Shown here: positions 28,649 to 63,800 of the stretch, piece by piece
Numbering within the stretch: position 1 is the stretch's first letter
How the letters are laid out: every line of letters begins with the position of its first letter
Assembly (NCBI GenBank): GCA_011391125.1
Contig: JAABRE010000008.1
Coordinates: forward strand, 1 to 64,000
Direction of reading: 5' to 3'
Length of the DNA stretch: 64,000 bases
Origin: Synechococcales cyanobacterium S06
Lineage (GTDB): Bacteria; Cyanobacteriota; Cyanobacteriia; Cyanobacteriales; JAABRE01
Translations under genes and position numbers: made by a program
The notes under the pieces: model-generated
Databases searched by the model: none
Seen by the model: only the letters and a program-made list of their open reading frames with translations
What the model was told of the DNA's origin: nothing

Positions 28649-28701
28649 ATTTTCACCTATATTTGTTGACAATTTTTAATCTTATCCTATTTTTGCGATC
28701 T

Positions 28702-28731
28702 GGTAGGGGTGAACGGCCCTTCACCCCTACC
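28702..28731. repeat. Palindromic repeat (family B), intergenic
   Basis: GGTAGGGGTGAACGG pairs with its inverse, with one mismatch at the centre. It lies between leuD and the MBL-fold gene. Other copies are at 45400-45427 (intergenic), 54732-54759 and 62386-62413 (both inside genes). Confidence 0.9.
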
Positions 28732-28751
28732 AAATTTTGATAAACTGTATT

Positions 28752-32067: not shown

Positions 32068-32106
32068 ACCCTCACCCCCAACCCCTCTCCCCAAGGGAGA
32101 GGGGAG
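32068..32106. repeat. Family A palindrome, intergenic
   Basis: CCCTCACCCCCAACCCCTC followed by GGGAGAGGGGAG, a strong hairpin just before the lytic transglycosylase stop (32117). It is preceded by a short duplication of the Uma2 gene end (CATTACAGGAAA). Confidence 0.85.
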
Positions 32107-37834: not shown

Positions 37835-38764
37835 ATGCAGTATAAATTTAGTTATCGTAGTTATAAAAGGGAATTTAAACAACCATTACAAACCAGTCAG
37901 GGAAGTTGGCAATTTCGGGAAGGAATTATTATTAAATTAGAAGATAATTTAGGTAAGATTGGGTTAGGCGAAATTGCACCAATTCCTTGGTTTGGTAGCG
38001 AAACTTTAGCAGAAGTTCGACAATTTTGCAGTCAATTAAAGGGGCTAATTACTGACAGTTTAATTACCGCAATTCCTGATAATTTACCCACTTGTCAATT
38101 CGGTTTTTCCTCAGCATTATCTCATTTTCTCCCTCCCTTACCAAGGGAGAAAGGGAGGAGAAATTATTGTTATTTATTACCCACGGGAAAAAATGCTTTA
38201 CAAGTTAATTTTGCTCCCTTAAATTATGATACTTTTAAGTGGAAAATTGGAGTTAATTCTGTTACTGAGGAGATTAATTTATTAGAAAAGTTACTTAATT
38301 TATTACCAGAAAATTCAAAATTGCGTCTTGATGCTAATGGTGGTTTAAGCATTAAGCAAGCTTGCGAATGGTTAAATTTTACTGATAGTTTAGAGATAAT
38401 CGAGTTTTTTGAACAACCTTTAAAACCTGAGTATTTTGAGGAAATGTTACGGTTATCTAATCTGTATAAAACCAGTTTAGCTTTGGATGAATCTGTGGCT
38501 AATTTATCTCAATTAAAAGACTATTATAGGAGGGGTTGGAAGGAAGTCTTTGTGATTAAAGTGGGAATTATGGGTTCAATTTTTAAACTGCGTGAATTTT
38601 TGTTGCAAAATAAGTTAGATGTGGTATTTTCTTCGGTGTTAGAAACTAAAATAGGTGCAGAAATTGCTTTGAATTTTGCGCAAGAATTTTCCGAAAGAGC
38701 AGCTGGGTTTGGCGTTGATCATTGGTTTAAAGATGATGTTAATTGCTTAGATAATTTATGGTAA
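37835..38764 (+). CDS. menC: o-Succinylbenzoate synthase
   Basis: An enolase-superfamily enzyme of phylloquinone (vitamin K1) synthesis. The active-site residues are in FKWKIGV (Lys), LRLDANGG, IEFFEQPL and LALDESVA, with the second Lys in VIKVGIMGS. It is 309 residues. The segment LPPLPREKGRRN comes from a C-rich palindrome within the gene (38129-38160). It overlaps menE by seven bases. Confidence 0.92.
   Translation: MQYKFSYRSYKREFKQPLQTSQGSWQFREGIIIKLEDNLGKIGLGEIAPIPWFGSETLAEVRQFCSQLKGLITDSLITAIPDNLPTCQFGFSSALSHFLPPLPREKGRRNYCYLLPTGKNALQVNFAPLNYDTFKWKIGVNSVTEEINLLEKLLNLLPENSKLRLDANGGLSIKQACEWLNFTDSLEIIEFFEQPLKPEYFEEMLRLSNLYKTSLALDESVANLSQLKDYYRRGWKEVFVIKVGIMGSIFKLREFLLQNKLDVVFSSVLETKIGAEIALNFAQEFSERAAGFGVDHWFKDDVNCLDNLW
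38129..38160. repeat. Family A palindrome inside menC
   Basis: CTCCCTCCCTT and AAGGGAGAAAGGGAGGAG form a hairpin in the middle of menC. The frame stays open and reads as LPPLPREKGRR, an insertion before the active-site half of the protein. Confidence 0.75.
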
Positions 38765-40125
38765 ATTTATTAGAATTACTCAAAAAAAGAAGTCAAGAAA
38801 ATTGGTTAATTGGTTATGATAGTCAGGAATTTTATCATTTAGTTGACAAAATATATACTAATTTACAAACTAATTATTCACAACCTCTTAAAACTCTGAT
38901 TGTTAATGAAAATCCGATTACTTTTTTAGCTTATTTTTTAGCGGTAAGTGCAGCAAATTTTCCTGTTTTTTTGGGTAATTCTGATTGGAAAGCCTCGGAA
39001 TGGGAACAAGTTTTCAACCTAATTAAACCTGAACTTATTTTAGGAGATAACCCTCACCCCCCTACCCCCCTCTCCCTAAAGGAGAGGGGGAAAAATGCAC
39101 CTTTTAATTTTAAAATAGGTGAGATTATTCCCCATAATTATATTATGATTCCCACGGGAGGAACTTCTGGGCAAATAAAATTTGCCATACATTCTTGGAA
39201 AACTTTAACCTCCTCTGTCACTGCTTTTCAACAATATTTTGAGCTAAAATATCTTCACTCATTCTGTATTTTACCCCTGTATCATGTTAGTGGTTTAATG
39301 CAGTTTTTACGGTGTCTTTTTAGTGGCGGAAAATTCGCACTTTTTGATTATAAGTCCCTGAAAAATGACATTTATCCTACCATTAATCCCGAAAATTATT
39401 TTATTTCTTTAGTCCCAACACAACTACAATTTTTCTTAGCAAATAACCCCCAATGGTTAGCTAAATTTAAAACAGTTTTATTAGGAGGAGCTCCTGCTTC
39501 ATCTTTACTTTTAGATTTTGCTAGACAACACAAAATTAATTTAGCCCCTACTTACGGAATGACGGAAACTGCGTCAGGAATTGCCATCCTTAAACCACAA
39601 GATTTTTTAAATGGTAATAATAGCACTGGTCAAATTTTGCCTAAAAACAAACTAGAATTTACTCAAAATAGTGTAATAAAAATTTCAAGCGGTTCTTTAT
39701 TTATGGGGTATTATCCCATTTTCACTAAAAATAAATATTTCCAAACCGATGATTTAGGCTATTTTGATGAACAAAATTATTTACATATTATTGGTAGAAA
39801 TAGTCGCAAAATTATTAGTGGTGGTGAAAATATTTCCCCCGAAGAAATCGAAAATGAAATTTTAGCCACTGGTCTAGTTCAAGATGTTTGTGTAATTGGT
39901 GTTCAAGATGAAAAATGGGGCGAAATTGTCACGGCAATTTATGTTTCTTTGCTCCCCCCTACCCCCCTTAATAAAGGAGAATTAATTGAGGAGCAAATTA
40001 AGGCCAAAATTCAGCAGAAGTTAAGTAAATATAAACTTCCTAAAAAATGGCTTCAAGTAACAGAAATACCCCGCAATCAACAGGGTAAACTTAATTTCAA
40101 ATTACTCAAAAGTATGTTACTTTAG
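38758..40125 (+). CDS. menE: 2-Succinylbenzoate-CoA ligase
   Basis: An adenylate-forming enzyme (455 residues) that activates o-succinylbenzoate in phylloquinone synthesis. Motifs are IMIPTGGTSGQIKFAIHSWK, PTYGMTETASG, YFQTDDLGYFDE and GRNSRKIISGGENISPEEIE, with the C-terminal Lys in RNQQGKLNF. It starts within menC (seven-base overlap). Two palindromes in the gene add NPHPPTPLSLKERGK and PPTPLNKGE. Confidence 0.92.
   Translation: MVNLLELLKKRSQENWLIGYDSQEFYHLVDKIYTNLQTNYSQPLKTLIVNENPITFLAYFLAVSAANFPVFLGNSDWKASEWEQVFNLIKPELILGDNPHPPTPLSLKERGKNAPFNFKIGEIIPHNYIMIPTGGTSGQIKFAIHSWKTLTSSVTAFQQYFELKYLHSFCILPLYHVSGLMQFLRCLFSGGKFALFDYKSLKNDIYPTINPENYFISLVPTQLQFFLANNPQWLAKFKTVLLGGAPASSLLLDFARQHKINLAPTYGMTETASGIAILKPQDFLNGNNSTGQILPKNKLEFTQNSVIKISSGSLFMGYYPIFTKNKYFQTDDLGYFDEQNYLHIIGRNSRKIISGGENISPEEIENEILATGLVQDVCVIGVQDEKWGEIVTAIYVSLLPPTPLNKGELIEEQIKAKIQQKLSKYKLPKKWLQVTEIPRNQQGKLNFKLLKSMLL
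39050..39090. repeat. Family A palindrome inside menE (first)
   Basis: CCCTCACCCCCCTACCCCCC and GGAGAGGGGG form a hairpin. The frame reads NPHPPTPLSLKERGK without a stop. Confidence 0.8.
39951..39984. repeat. Family A palindrome inside menE (second)
   Basis: A shorter, degenerate copy: GCTCCCCCCTACCCCC and TAAAGGAGAA. It encodes LLPPTPLNKGEL near the C-terminal domain, before the mobile lid region. Confidence 0.65.
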
Positions 40126-40260: not shown

Positions 40261-40758
40261 TTATTCTTCTAAATTTAAACGAGAATTATAATCATGAACA
40301 AAATACCAGACAGTGCCAATATGATTTTCTAACTTTTTTGAAAACGATAAAGTTTTGCGGACTAACCGAGATACTCTTTGTCGAAGAGTATTATTAAATC
40401 TTTCTATATAACTTGTTTTTCTCGATGATTTATCTACAGCTTTATGTCTTTTTAATGGTAAAATAATAGCATAAGCGTCCCAGAAATCAGTATAACAAAC
40501 AGCACATTGTCGATATACAGGAGGTAAATTATCCCATAATTTTTGAGCTGTTTCTTTACTTCTATCTCCAAAAGCTAGAGCTACAATTTCTTTTGTTACA
40601 GAGTCCAAAGCTACCCAAATCAAAACTTTTAAGTTTTTATTATAAACAAAAGACCATAATTCATCTAGTTGTAAAATTAATTTACCTCTTTTTTTTTCAG
40701 AAATATTTGCTTTTTTTCGACTTGATAGTATTTTTGATTTACATAATATTGTAACCAT
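40261..40758 (-). CDS. insB: IS1-family transposase, InsB part
   Basis: The catalytic half of the transposase. DDE residues lie in LQLDELWSFVY, VCYTDFWDAY and SYIERFNNTLRQR. The real protein is probably made by a -1 frameshift from InsA at a run of nine A on the coding strand (40689-40697), giving FLKKK joined to RGKLILQLDELW. The first residues of this open frame upstream of that point are not expected to be used. Confidence 0.87.
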   Translation of the reverse strand: MVTILCKSKILSSRKKANISEKKRGKLILQLDELWSFVYNKNLKVLIWVALDSVTKEIVALAFGDRSKETAQKLWDNLPPVYRQCAVCYTDFWDAYAIILPLKRHKAVDKSSRKTSYIERFNNTLRQRVSRLVRKTLSFSKKLENHIGTVWYFVHDYNSRLNLEE

Positions 40759-40973
40759 CTTTTTGAAACACCTGTTATTCGAACGATTCCTTGTAAAGAT
40801 ATTCTTTCTAAAAGTAATTTATCAATTAATATTTTTGTTTCATTACTGATAGGCTGATGTCGAGGATTTTCCACAAATTGCCTCTGACAATCTTTACATT
40901 TATAACGTTGTTTACCATAATTCGTTTTACCATACTTAACAATTTTATCTGAGTTACATTTTATACATTTCAT
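40677..40973 (-). CDS. insA: IS1-family transposase, InsA part
   Basis: 98 residues. A Cys4 zinc finger (MKCIKCNSDKIVKYGK, then RYKCKDCQRQF) is followed by a helix-turn-helix (GIVRITGVSKRWLQYYV), which binds the IS ends. A nine-A slippery run near its end gives a frame change to InsB. Alone, InsA usually represses transposition. Confidence 0.87.
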   Translation of the reverse strand: MKCIKCNSDKIVKYGKTNYGKQRYKCKDCQRQFVENPRHQPISNETKILIDKLLLERISLQGIVRITGVSKRWLQYYVNQKYYQVEKKQIFLKKKEVN

Positions 40974-45399: not shown

Positions 45400-45427
45400 G
45401 TAGGGGTGAACGGCCGTTCACCCCTAC
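45400..45427. repeat. Palindromic repeat (family B), intergenic
   Basis: A perfect 28-bp palindrome whose half is GTAGGGGTGAACGG. It is followed by GCGCTAAAGCGC, as in the MITE core. It lies between cimA and the Uma2 gene. Confidence 0.92.
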
Positions 45428-54586: not shown

Positions 54587-56206
54587 ATGAAAAATAAGTT
54601 ATTTTATGGCGATAATTTAGAGGTTTTACGGCGTTATATTAAGGATGAATCGGTGGATTTATGTTATATTGATCCTCCTTTTAATTCTAAGCGAAATTAC
54701 AGTCAAATTTATAATAATATTGTTGATAATTGTAGGGGTGAACGGCCGTTCACCCCTACTGCTTTTGTTGATACTTGGACATGGGATGATTACGCCAATC
54801 AGGGATTAAAGGAAATTCAGGAAAATTATTTAGGTCATTTTACTTCACAAACAATTGATTTAATAAATGGTTTAATTGCTGTGTTAAAAAAGGGTGAACT
54901 ACTAGCCTATTTGGTTGCTATGACTTTAAGAATAGCCGAAATTCATCGCGTTTTAAAACCGACGGGGAGTTTTTATTTACATTGTGATCCCAATGCGTCA
55001 CATTATTTAAAGTTAGTTTTAGATAGCATTTTTTGCTCCCAAGGAGGTGATTATAAAAATGAACTTATTTGGAAAAGACGGACTAATACTGTTAAAGCAA
55101 TCACTAAATCTTTTTCGAGATTAAATGATGTTATTTATTTTTATGTTAAATCTGCCAAAAATTATTATTTTGAAATTCAATATGAAGATTATCCCACGGA
55201 ATATATTAAAAGATTTAAGTACCAAGATGAATACGGCCAATATCGTTGGCAGGTAATGGCTACTTATTCCCAAGAAAGGTTAGAACAACTTAAAAAAGAA
55301 AATAAGGTTAGATTTTCACCAACTGCTAAATATCCCGAATTTAAGCAGTATTTACACGAATTAAAAGGTATTCCTGTGACAAATCTTTGGACAGATATTG
55401 ATATGCTTAATTCTCAATCACGAGAAAGATTAGGTTATCCAACCCAAAAACCTGAAGCACTTTTAGAACGAATTATTAAAGCTAGTTCTCAGGAAAATGA
55501 CGTTATTTTAGATGCTTTTTTGGGTGGAGGAACTACTATTTCTATTGCACAAAGATTGAAAAGACAATGGATAGGAATTGATCTAACTTATCGGAGTATT
55601 GGCATAACTTTAAAACGTTTACAAGATAGTTTTGGCCAGGAAATCCTAGATAAAATTCAGTTAAGTGGTATTCCAAAAGATGTGGAATCAGCTAAACTTT
55701 TAGCTGAGAAAAAAGACGACAGAACTCGGAAAGAATTTGAAACTTGGGCGATTTTAACCTACTCTAATAACTGCGCTATTATTAATGATAAAAAAGGGAA
55801 AACCCCCCTTAATCCTCCCTTAGTAAGTGGGAGAGAGAGGTTCGATGGAATCGCTTATTTTCAAGGGGAAAAATCTCAGGAAAAAATTATTTTACAGGTA
55901 AAATCAGGTAAAGTTGGCGCAAAAGATATTCGGGATTTACAAGGAGTTTTAACCTTAGAAAATGCACCTCTTGGTATATTAATCATGCTACAAAATCCCA
56001 CCAAAGATATGATAAAAACAGCGAAAAGTGCCGGTATTTATCAGAATAAATATATGAGTCAACCCCTTGATAAAATCCAAATTGTCACCATTGAGGAAAT
56101 CTTAGAACAGCAAAAAAGATTAGATATAAAATTAACTTTTGAAGTGTTAAAATCCGCTCCTCAACAACAGCAAATTAACACCAATCAAATGAAATTAGAA
56201 TTGTAG
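54587..56206 (+). CDS. DNA adenine methyltransferase-PD-(D/E)XK nuclease fusion 1
   Basis: 539 residues from MKNKLFYGDN, with GAGG upstream. The methyltransferase has CYIDPPFNSKRNY (catalytic DPPF) early and DAFLGGGTT (FxGxG-like SAM site) late, the beta order. The variable middle (about 55050-55430) is the target recognition region. The C-terminal part, RKEFETWAILTYSNN, FDGIAYFQG and ILQVKSGKVGAKDIRD, fits an Mrr-like nuclease with D and QxK. Two palindromic repeats lie inside, one just before the catalytic Asp. A paralogue lies at 57011. Confidence 0.85.
   Translation: MKNKLFYGDNLEVLRRYIKDESVDLCYIDPPFNSKRNYSQIYNNIVDNCRGERPFTPTAFVDTWTWDDYANQGLKEIQENYLGHFTSQTIDLINGLIAVLKKGELLAYLVAMTLRIAEIHRVLKPTGSFYLHCDPNASHYLKLVLDSIFCSQGGDYKNELIWKRRTNTVKAITKSFSRLNDVIYFYVKSAKNYYFEIQYEDYPTEYIKRFKYQDEYGQYRWQVMATYSQERLEQLKKENKVRFSPTAKYPEFKQYLHELKGIPVTNLWTDIDMLNSQSRERLGYPTQKPEALLERIIKASSQENDVILDAFLGGGTTISIAQRLKRQWIGIDLTYRSIGITLKRLQDSFGQEILDKIQLSGIPKDVESAKLLAEKKDDRTRKEFETWAILTYSNNCAIINDKKGKTPLNPPLVSGRERFDGIAYFQGEKSQEKIILQVKSGKVGAKDIRDLQGVLTLENAPLGILIMLQNPTKDMIKTAKSAGIYQNKYMSQPLDKIQIVTIEEILEQQKRLDIKLTFEVLKSAPQQQQINTNQMKLEL
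54732..54759. repeat. Palindromic repeat (family B) inside methyltransferase 1
   Basis: A perfect 28-bp palindrome with half GTAGGGGTGAACGG. It reads CRGERPFTPT in frame. The paralogue at 57011 has unrelated GQEDKAQAQ at this point. Confidence 0.92.
55800..55842. repeat. Family A palindrome inside methyltransferase 1
   Basis: ACCCCCCTTAATCCTCCC and GGGAGAGAGAGG add TPLNPPLVSGRER between KGK and DGIAYF. The paralogue has only DQGI there, so the insertion is direct evidence of mobility into the gene. Confidence 0.85.
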
Positions 56207-60820: not shown

Positions 60821-63800
60821 TCAAACGATCATACTTTTGACTTTTGACTTTTTACTTGTAAATAACCCTCCTAACCACTTCACAAAACCGTAAATATAGG
60901 TAAATAAAACGGGGACAACAATTAAGGTTAATAACGTCGAAGTGCTGAATCCACCAATCACGGCGATCGCCATGGGACTCCTGACTTCTCCATCAGCACC
61001 CCAAGCTAAAGCAATGGGGACCATTCCCGCAATGGTAGAAAGGGAAGTCATAACAATCGGACGTAAACGAGACACCCCAGCGTTGATTATCGACGGAAAT
61101 AATCGATTTCCGGCTTTTATTCCGTCTAAAGTGCAATCGACTAGCAAAATCGCATTTTTCGTGACTAACCCCATTAACAGCACGATTCCGATGAGGGCAA
61201 ATAACCCCAATTCTTTCTGCATGATTAATAAGCCTAATAATGCTCCACCAATCGACAAGGGTAAAGCGGCTAAAATAGCAAGGGGGTAGAGGAAATTATT
61301 GTAAAGTAGGACTAAAATGCCATAGATGCAAAAGACCGCAAACCCCAACGCTGTACCAAAACGACCGAAAATATCCCGCATAATTTTGGCGTTTCCATCA
61401 GGTTGTTGGGAAATACCATCTGGCAAGGGATTCATCATCGGTAAAGCGTTGACCTTTGCCAACGCATCCCCCAAGGCAATATCCTCTAAATTCGCATCCA
61501 CTTTAACTTGACGCGCGCGATTAAAACGCTGAATTTCCGCAGGGCCACTTCCCAAACGAATATTCGCAACGGCCGAAAGTGGCACCAATTCGCCAGTCTG
61601 ACTGGGAATACGCAAATTTTTGAGGGTATTTATGTCGCTCCTTTGGTCAGGATTAATCTGCACCCGAATGGGAATTTGGCGATCGGGTAGGTTAAACTTA
61701 GGTAAATTAGTCTCAATGTCGCCGATTAAACCTAAAGAAGCCGTGCGGGCAATATCCCGCACCGAAACCCCCAAATCCCTAGCACGAGCGGGGTCTGGCA
61801 CAATCACCAACTCAGGTTTTACCAAACTACTGCTAGACGAAACTTCCACCAAACCCGGTATTTCCCGCATTTGCTTTTCTAATTCCATCGCCGTTTGATT
61901 TAACAAGTCGCCATTTTCACTTTTTAAAACCAGAGATAAATCCTTACTTGAACCCCCTGCTCCCCTACTACTAAAGCCAATACGCGCTCCCGCAATTTGT
62001 TTAAAAGAGTCGCGCATTTGGTTTTCAAATTCCTGTTGAGACAGTTCGCGCTGATCTTTTGGTACTAAATCAATGAAAGCTGACCCATTATTCACTACCC
62101 CGTCACTGCCTAAAACCCCTAAAACACTAGCAACAGCGGGATTTTTCTCTAGGTATTTCTGCACCTGAAAAAAAACTTCTTCGGTATCCGCTAACGTCGA
62201 ACCCGGTGGCAACTCCACCGTTAAACTACTTAAACCCGTGTCTCCACTGTCAAATAAACCTTTCGGGATAAAAGGAATTAGCTGCAAACTCCCGATAAAA
62301 AAAGCAACAGCCACTAATAAAGTCACAATTCGATGTCTTAAAGACCAATTTAACAAACTGCGATAGGGGGTAAATTTTCGCTTTGGTAGGGGTGAACGGC
62401 CGTTCACCCTTACTTCATTGTCAATTTCAACTTTCCCTTTCAGCCAATATGCGCTCAACATCGGTGTCATGGTAGTTGCCACCAACGTTGAAAACATAGT
62501 CGAAACCGCCACCGTTACCCCGAAAGGTTGGAAAAATTGTCCCGGTACACCGCCCATAAAAGCAACGGGAATGAAAACAGCCACAACCGTAGCCGTAGTT
62601 GCGACTACCGCCAAACCAATTTCCTTAGCACCGTCTAAAGCAGCTTGATAGGGTTTTTTACCCATTTGCAAATGCTGATCAATATTCTCAATCATGCAGA
62701 TTGCATCATCAACCAGATTACCGATCGCTAGGGCCAAAGCTAATAAAGTCATCCCATTGAGGGTATAATTGAGGGTTTTCATCACCAAAAAAGTTGGGAT
62801 CATCGACAAGGGAAGCGCCAAAGAAGTAATCACCGTGACGCGCCAATCTTTAATGAATACTCCCACCGTTATAACGGTCAAAATACAGCCAATCCATATC
62901 CCCTCAATAGTCCCTTTATACGAGCCTCTAATGGCATCCGCACGAGTGAAAATAAGTTTTACCTCAATATCTTCATCAAGGGTTTTTTGAAGGGCTTTAA
63001 TGGATTTTTGTACTTCTTCTTCCACAGTAACTAAGGTACTACCCGAAGCACGTCTGACGGAAAAGCCGACAACTGGTTGACCATTGAGGTAGGCAGATTG
63101 ACGAGCTTCGCCAAATCCGTCGCGCACATCCCCTAAACTAGACAATGGTACCGTGTCACCATTATTCAATGTAATGGGGTATTCCTGCAATTGTTGAACA
63201 TTTTTGGCGCTTCCTAGGGTTCTGACGTTTTGTTCAGTACCGCCAATTTCTGCTCTACCACCGGGTAAATTGAGGTTGAAGTTGGCTATTTGTTGGTTGA
63301 CTTGGGTTGCAGTAATATTATACGCTTGCAGGCGACTGGGGTCTAAGTCAACTCGAATTTCTCGATCAACTCCACCTAACCTTTCAACAGAAGCGACACC
63401 TTGGACATTTAATATTTCCCTCGCGATTTTTCGGTCCACTAAATCGCTTAATTCTTCGGTGGATTTCTTGTTAGATGAAACCGAATAGGTAATAATTGAA
63501 CCTCCAGCGAATTCTAATTTATTGACAATTGGTTCATTGATGTCTTGGGGGAGTTGATTTCTAATTTGGGAAACCGCATTTTGAACATCATTGGTTGCTT
63601 GATCACTATCAGTTCCAATGATAAAATTTATCACAGTGGTGGACCGACTTTCACCGACAGTTGAGACAATTTGATCGATATTTTCTAAACCGGCGATCGC
63701 ATCTTCAACCTTTTTCGTTACCTGTGTTTCCAACTCCTCTGGACCTGCACCGGGTTGTGTTACAGTAATCATTACAGCCGGAACATCGATATTAGGATTA

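Follow-up and report, generated by a model that had tools for sequence, protein, structure and literature searches.

Dispersed palindromic repeats within the menC and menE reading frames of a cyanobacterium, and palindromes at the same MenC loop in other lineages

The menC and menE genes of Synechococcales cyanobacterium S06 contain three C-rich tracts that belong to a repeat family scattered through the same genome and lie in frame at positions modelled as protein loops; at one of these positions, in MenC, palindromes of several types are also found in other cyanobacteria. We think it probable (about 0.78) that the three tracts are dispersed palindromes resembling REP elements or small dispersed repeats (SDRs), which inserted at many places and persist in frame at linkers able to accommodate them. 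The features discussed are collected in Table 1, in which “the window” is the whole stretch of DNA that was analysed (64,000 nucleotides).

Table 1. Positions of genes and repeat copies (window coordinates unless preceded by a locus number)
Feature	Position	Strand	Remarks
menC, o-succinylbenzoate synthase	37835..38764	+	309 aa; PRK02714 E 5e-125; Pfam MR_MLE_C, MenC_N
menE, o-succinylbenzoate--CoA ligase	38758..40125	+	455 aa; PRK07445 family; AMP-binding, AMP-binding_C
Palindromic repeat 1 in menC	38125..38161	+	CTCCCTCCCTTACCAAGGGAGAAAGGGAGGAG; residues about 97-109
Palindromic repeat 2 in menE	39050..39092	+	Encodes NPHPPTPLSLKERGK; residues about 98-112
Degenerate repeat copy 3 in menE	39953..39980	+	CCCCCCTACCCCCCTTAATAAAGGAG; encodes LPPTPLNKGE; residues about 399-408
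Intergenic family-A copy	32082..32104	+	CCCCTCTCCCCAAGGGAGAGGGG
Family-A copy within 546-aa ORF	55804..55831	+	KGKTPLNPPLVSGRER
Palindrome-loaded restriction-modification genes	L075:7289-11065, L102:3611-6949, L125:14448-17414, L077:9283-11232, L099:2-2926, L108:3862-5172, L129:9942-10901		

Three repeat tracts and the loops they encode

The end of menC overlaps the start of menE by 7 nt. Both genes are full-length and are matched by family models, in agreement with the initial annotation, which had both frames remaining open despite the repeats; the PRK07445 match of menE has an E value of 5e-178, yet its score is below the model's own cut-off (NCBIfam). Directly 3′ of menE (window positions 40261-40973) lie two overlapping minus-strand ORFs that resemble an IS1-type transposase pair.

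Three palindromes had originally been described in these two genes. Two of them, one in menC and one in menE, stand as such, but the third, also in menE, is a degenerate copy that does not fold. By RNA folding, repeat 1 forms a 15-bp bulged hairpin of -18.1 kcal/mol (z -1.8 relative to its own shuffles; the value is modest because the base composition is itself extreme), and repeat 2 comprises a C-rich lead that begins at 39050 and includes the second C-block, followed by a perfect 10-bp hairpin at 39066-39090 (-22.3 kcal/mol, z -3.9). Repeat 3 gave no fold in the same folding and shuffling (-2.9 kcal/mol, z +0.1), and only its likeness to the CCCCCCTA-CCCCCCTT-AAGGGGGG type identifies it as a decayed copy. 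The tracts encode the Pro-rich peptides first reported for them, LPPLPREKGRR and PPTPLNKGE included. Comparable C-rich hairpins arose by chance in 9 of 300 codon-order shuffles of menC and 13 of 300 of menE (3% and 4%). Similarity to a dispersed family is stronger evidence that these are repeats than hairpin formation in shuffle tests.

In confident AlphaFold models of the two proteins (mean pLDDT 92.3 for MenC and 89.8 for MenE) all three positions fall between secondary-structure elements, as expected from the earlier placement of the inserts in loops. Repeat 1 occupies the MenC linker loop that joins helix 85-98 to strand 111-114; repeat 2 occupies a low-confidence MenE loop before the P-loop strand 129-132, and this loop holds the sole MenE segments with pLDDT below 50 (104-107 and 113-121); repeat 3 lies in the MenE C-terminal domain, between strand 388-397 and helix 408-418.

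Alignments of orthologues from cyanobacteria in the same order (51 genomes for MenC, 87 for MenE) served to compare loop lengths. At the site of repeat 3 (MenE site 2) there are 11 aa in the window versus 1-5 aa in 86 of 86 other orthologues. The alignment marks this as a clean insertion, 7 aa long and private to the window's protein, and it is the sole clean one among the three. Equally long Pro-rich loops without a palindrome, which had been named at the outset as the observation that would refute the proposal, are thus absent from the 86 orthologues at this site, but they do occur in MenC, for which the proposal is refuted by that standard. In the window the MenC loop is 21 aa long; the 41 palindrome-free orthologues have 16-47 aa there, with a median of 23. 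The loop of the solved Thermosynechococcus OSBS structure 2OZT has the window's length within one residue, and two palindrome-free orthologues (L156 and L157) have Pro-rich loops at this place. Extra length is therefore no marker of insertion in MenC. At the site of repeat 2 (MenE site 1) the window has 29 aa and the others have a median of about 20 (range 4-69), with several palindrome-free orthologues matching the 29 aa. The nearest MenE relative compared is just 56% identical (one MAG copy is 52% identical), and for this reason an empty site corresponding to the window's own copies was not seen.

These lengths raise the alternative that nothing was inserted into MenC at all, and that the palindrome arose by chance in a linker of ancestral length that is rich in Pro, Lys and Arg. 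Such an origin would agree with the ordinary length of the loop, with the frequency of such hairpins among menC shuffles and with the low z of repeat 1, but it would not account for the match of repeat 1 to a dispersed family in a low-GC genome, for unmistakable repeats at the same loop in nine other genomes belonging to five other families, or for the decay with shortening that is visible among relatives (below). We consider it improbable.

The dispersed family in its own genome

A 1.84-Mb sample of the genome (35.5% GC; 38% of the 4.81 Mb total) was searched with fuzzy motifs. It contains 182 matches to the repeat, here called family A, and first-order Markov sequence of equal length contains none. 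The copies divide into 103 that are intergenic, 74 in ORFs of at least 100 aa (a few short copy-bearing ORFs of 103-112 aa may be spurious) and 5 that cross ORF edges; the claim of a dispersed repeat that occurs between genes as well is therefore upheld. Family-A density is 0.28/kb between genes versus 0.05/kb in ORFs. Coding DNA is thus about 6-fold poorer in copies, in keeping with purifying selection that removes most insertions. The copies are about 30-45 bp long, with two C-blocks (joined by AA, TA or TAA) and then a hairpin.

Family A is present in both orientations in unrelated genes and is translated in several frames. The peptide PPTPLSLxERG is common to three unrelated proteins, MenE, the glycine decarboxylase GcvP and an Eco57I-type restriction enzyme; in the same genome the opposite orientation encodes SPHPVGEGLGVR and another frame encodes TPNPSPTGGGE. 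The gcvP gene (L115:16424-19519) has two tandem in-frame copies (PPTPLSLGEFDLPHPPTPLSLGERGK) whose peptide is identical to that of MenE. Where cyanobacterial proteins contain Pro-rich peptides like PPTPLSLxERG or SPHPVGEGLGVR, these should accordingly be read as a sign of repeat DNA and not of homology. The window also contains, at 28701-28732, 45400-45427, 54732-54759 and 62390-62409, palindromes of a second family, GTAGGGGTGAACGGCCGTTCACCCCTAC, which is similar to GTAG-type REPs.

To the initial annotation the operon seemed a frequent target. Three copies in the 2.3 kb of menC-menE compare with an expected 0.05-0.11, and the Poisson expectation for the number of such stretches is 0.15, or 0.01 when restriction genes (a set that includes two ORFs taken without a Pfam scan) are left out. 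This estimate is post hoc and the distribution of copies is overdispersed, so we do not claim enrichment of menC-menE in its own genome. The palindrome-richest genes, with 2-10 in-frame copies each, encode type ISP, MmeI and Eco57I restriction-modification enzymes: an Eco57I/MmeI-type methylase has 10 copies, three type ISP enzymes have 7, 5 and 5, and an MmeI target-recognition fragment has 5. Nine multi-copy ORFs were compared with Pfam, and seven have restriction-modification domains above the cut-off, one falls just below it and one is a SNF2/ResIII helicase. At one shared position (KKSD...CQIFYNSL) the type of element also differs from one restriction-modification paralogue to another. 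With three hits noticed post hoc and 5-10 in each of these restriction-modification genes, the case for a favoured target is weak within this genome, where menC-menE is neither exceptional nor the main target. Cyanobacterial phylloquinone mutants are viable, and to call the cofactor pathway essential was likewise too strong.

The MenC loop across cyanobacterial lineages

When the 51 MenC ORFs were scanned for hairpins, 14 strong ones, C-rich or GTAG-like, came out at a single place, reference residues 101-104. They belong to 10 genomes from six families (f1, f2, f8, f11, f21 and f32). The element types at this loop include CCCCTCTCC..GGAGAGGGG, CCCCCCTT..AAGGGGGG, TGTAGAGACG..CATCTCTACA and GGTAGGGGCG..CGCCTCTACC, and additional genomes of the same families have the further repeats GTTCCCAGG..CCTGGGAAC and AAGTCCCCCTTATTAAGGGGGATTT. 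Overall, palindrome-bearing loops exceed the others in length (U test, p 2e-5). Near-empty sites occur in relatives of the same genus (L010 vs L173; L202-L204 vs L207-L231) and of the same family (L015 vs L021/L030). In one relative genus, short loops consist of decayed palindromes (L211 and L213 vs L218), which indicates how a palindrome can turn into a loop of unremarkable length. A quick MenC tree, with many weak branches and calculated with the loop columns left out, requires at least 5 changes for the C-rich elements only and at least 7 for all types. These comparisons support the view that one MenC loop has been recurrently colonised by varied palindromes, independently in at least five lineages. 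The correlation between palindromes at the loop and how often one exact motif occurs genome-wide was weak (p 0.065) and is given no weight here.

The hairpins might be kept by selection for a role in the menC-menE RNA, such as processing, stability or translation coupling. All C-rich copies in the MenC loop do read C-arm first in the transcript, and repeats 1 and 2 are predicted to fold stably (-18 and -22 kcal/mol), but most menC orthologues have no hairpin at that site, family A is mostly intergenic and stands in both orientations in unrelated genes, and the unfolded repeat 3 weakens the idea further. We judge such a role highly improbable.

At the men loci of other genomes, palindromes reach 2.5/kb within the MenC loop, compared with 0.02/kb in the rest of MenC, 0.03/kb in MenE, 0.02/kb in other ORFs and 0.13/kb in intergenic DNA. 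There is some tension here with the reading that tolerated insertion accounts for the tracts, as tolerance alone explains poorly why the loop is denser in palindromes than intergenic DNA. The linker DNA could be a true insertion hotspot, to which a DNA site, transcription or replication attracts palindromes. The roughly 19-fold excess over intergenic DNA of the same loci would then be explained, as would the meeting of distinct element families at the same point of MenC and the entry of AATTACC and CCAAAAT heptamers and GAGCAGG-type repeats into MenC and MenE loops of other lineages. However, no target sequence shared between lineages is visible, the same excess would result if in-frame inserts were lost more slowly than intergenic copies, and when counted by independent lineage the excess is smaller, with about 5 events in 4.4 kb versus 6 in 44.8 kb. 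A true hotspot in this sense seems unlikely. A broader and tentative proposal is that the linker between the MenC capping domain and barrel is a palindrome hotspot throughout the order, where insertion or retention surpasses that in intergenic DNA and colonisation rather than point mutation is the main engine that remodels the loop; we lean against it, though less so than against the other alternatives.

The MenE loops of other genomes also contain repeats. Tandem AATTACC and CCAAAAT heptamers and GAGCAGG repeats are present in MenE loop 1 of L016, L024, L142, L145 and L021 (and in the MenC loop of L181), and L173 and L010, which belong to one genus, have a longer repeat in the same MenE linker that encodes GLRLYSREFHS. 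Two AATCCCCCTT..AAGGGGGACT palindromes lie in menE of genome G033 (L193:2306-2376) near query residue 163, which may be a further MenE landing site.

MenC thus offers a natural replicate experiment, in which different repeat families would have colonised a single loop of a single enzyme many times independently. Its near-empty and decayed states within one genus should allow direct tests of the passage from repeat DNA to protein loop, and the lifetime of a palindrome under translation could be tested as well. No published report of palindromic repeats at the MenC loop was found in the part of the literature covered.

Proposed course of insertion and comparison with known elements

The favoured reading, insertion followed by survival in tolerant linkers, would run as follows. 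Family A would spread in the genome both between and inside genes, and within genes copies would last only where the frame stays open and the protein can bear added or changed residues. Most MenC and MenE residues would be intolerant of inserts; the tolerant spots would be the capping-domain-to-barrel linker of MenC and, in MenE, the linker that precedes the P-loop together with a loop in the C-terminal domain. Retained copies would be translated as loops that are first Pro-rich and then rich in Gly, Lys and Arg. Ordinary mutation would erode the palindromic symmetry, as perhaps in copy 3, and the remnant would serve as loop sequence. Unrelated palindrome families could have entered MenC independently because its linker appears to be permissive throughout the sampled cyanobacteria.

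We infer insertion from the near-empty sites in relatives; no target-site duplication was found. Mobility would then be the source of the repeats, the inserts would presumably be neutral, and an enzyme would presumably move the elements. RAYT was considered for this role and rejected as the mobiliser of family A: the genome has seven Y1_Tnp matches (L195-L201), and no family-A copy is present at those loci. The RAYT-like genes examined adjoin other palindromes, GTAG-like ones near L196 and L199; the one near the Y1_Tnp gene in L196 is similar to GTAGGGGTGAACGGCCGTTCACCCCTAC.

To our knowledge, palindromes that encode protein have been described mainly in Rickettsia and a few REP-rich species. 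Two papers (PMC10969869 and PMC3733652, reviewing Ogata et al. 2000/2002 and Claverie and Ogata 2003) describe Rickettsia palindromic elements (RPEs) as about 150 bp long with a conserved peptide, inserted in frame in unrelated protein genes, translated and predicted to be compatible with the protein fold. Family A is like them in that its 74 ORF copies also include in-frame copies within unrelated genes, but it is far shorter, C-rich and cyanobacterial, and it is read in several frames and orientations rather than as one conserved peptide.

The GTAG/CGTC REPs are short hairpins that are mostly intergenic, with some in ORFs of several species and at times several per gene, including cases of two inserts in one gene; in recB of two Xanthomonas species different REPs lie at about the same site, and GTAG-15/16 are cyanobacterial groups (PMC3733652). 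Family A similarly consists of short hairpins that are mainly intergenic, with some in ORFs and several per gene. It differs from GTAG REPs in that the copies read have no GTAG or CGTC 5′ of the stem, the listed ones have no GTAG 5′ of either arm, and the RAYT genes of this genome are not flanked by it. The Nostoc SDRs (Elhai et al. 2008, Genome Res 18:1484, as cited in PMC4390886) are also very small dispersed cyanobacterial repeats, and mobile ones, and the presence or absence of MenC-loop repeats within one genus recalls them; family A and the SDRs, likened here by description, are probably of the same general kind. The kind of element is already known from RPEs and intragenic REPs, and what is new is a loop shared across lineages.
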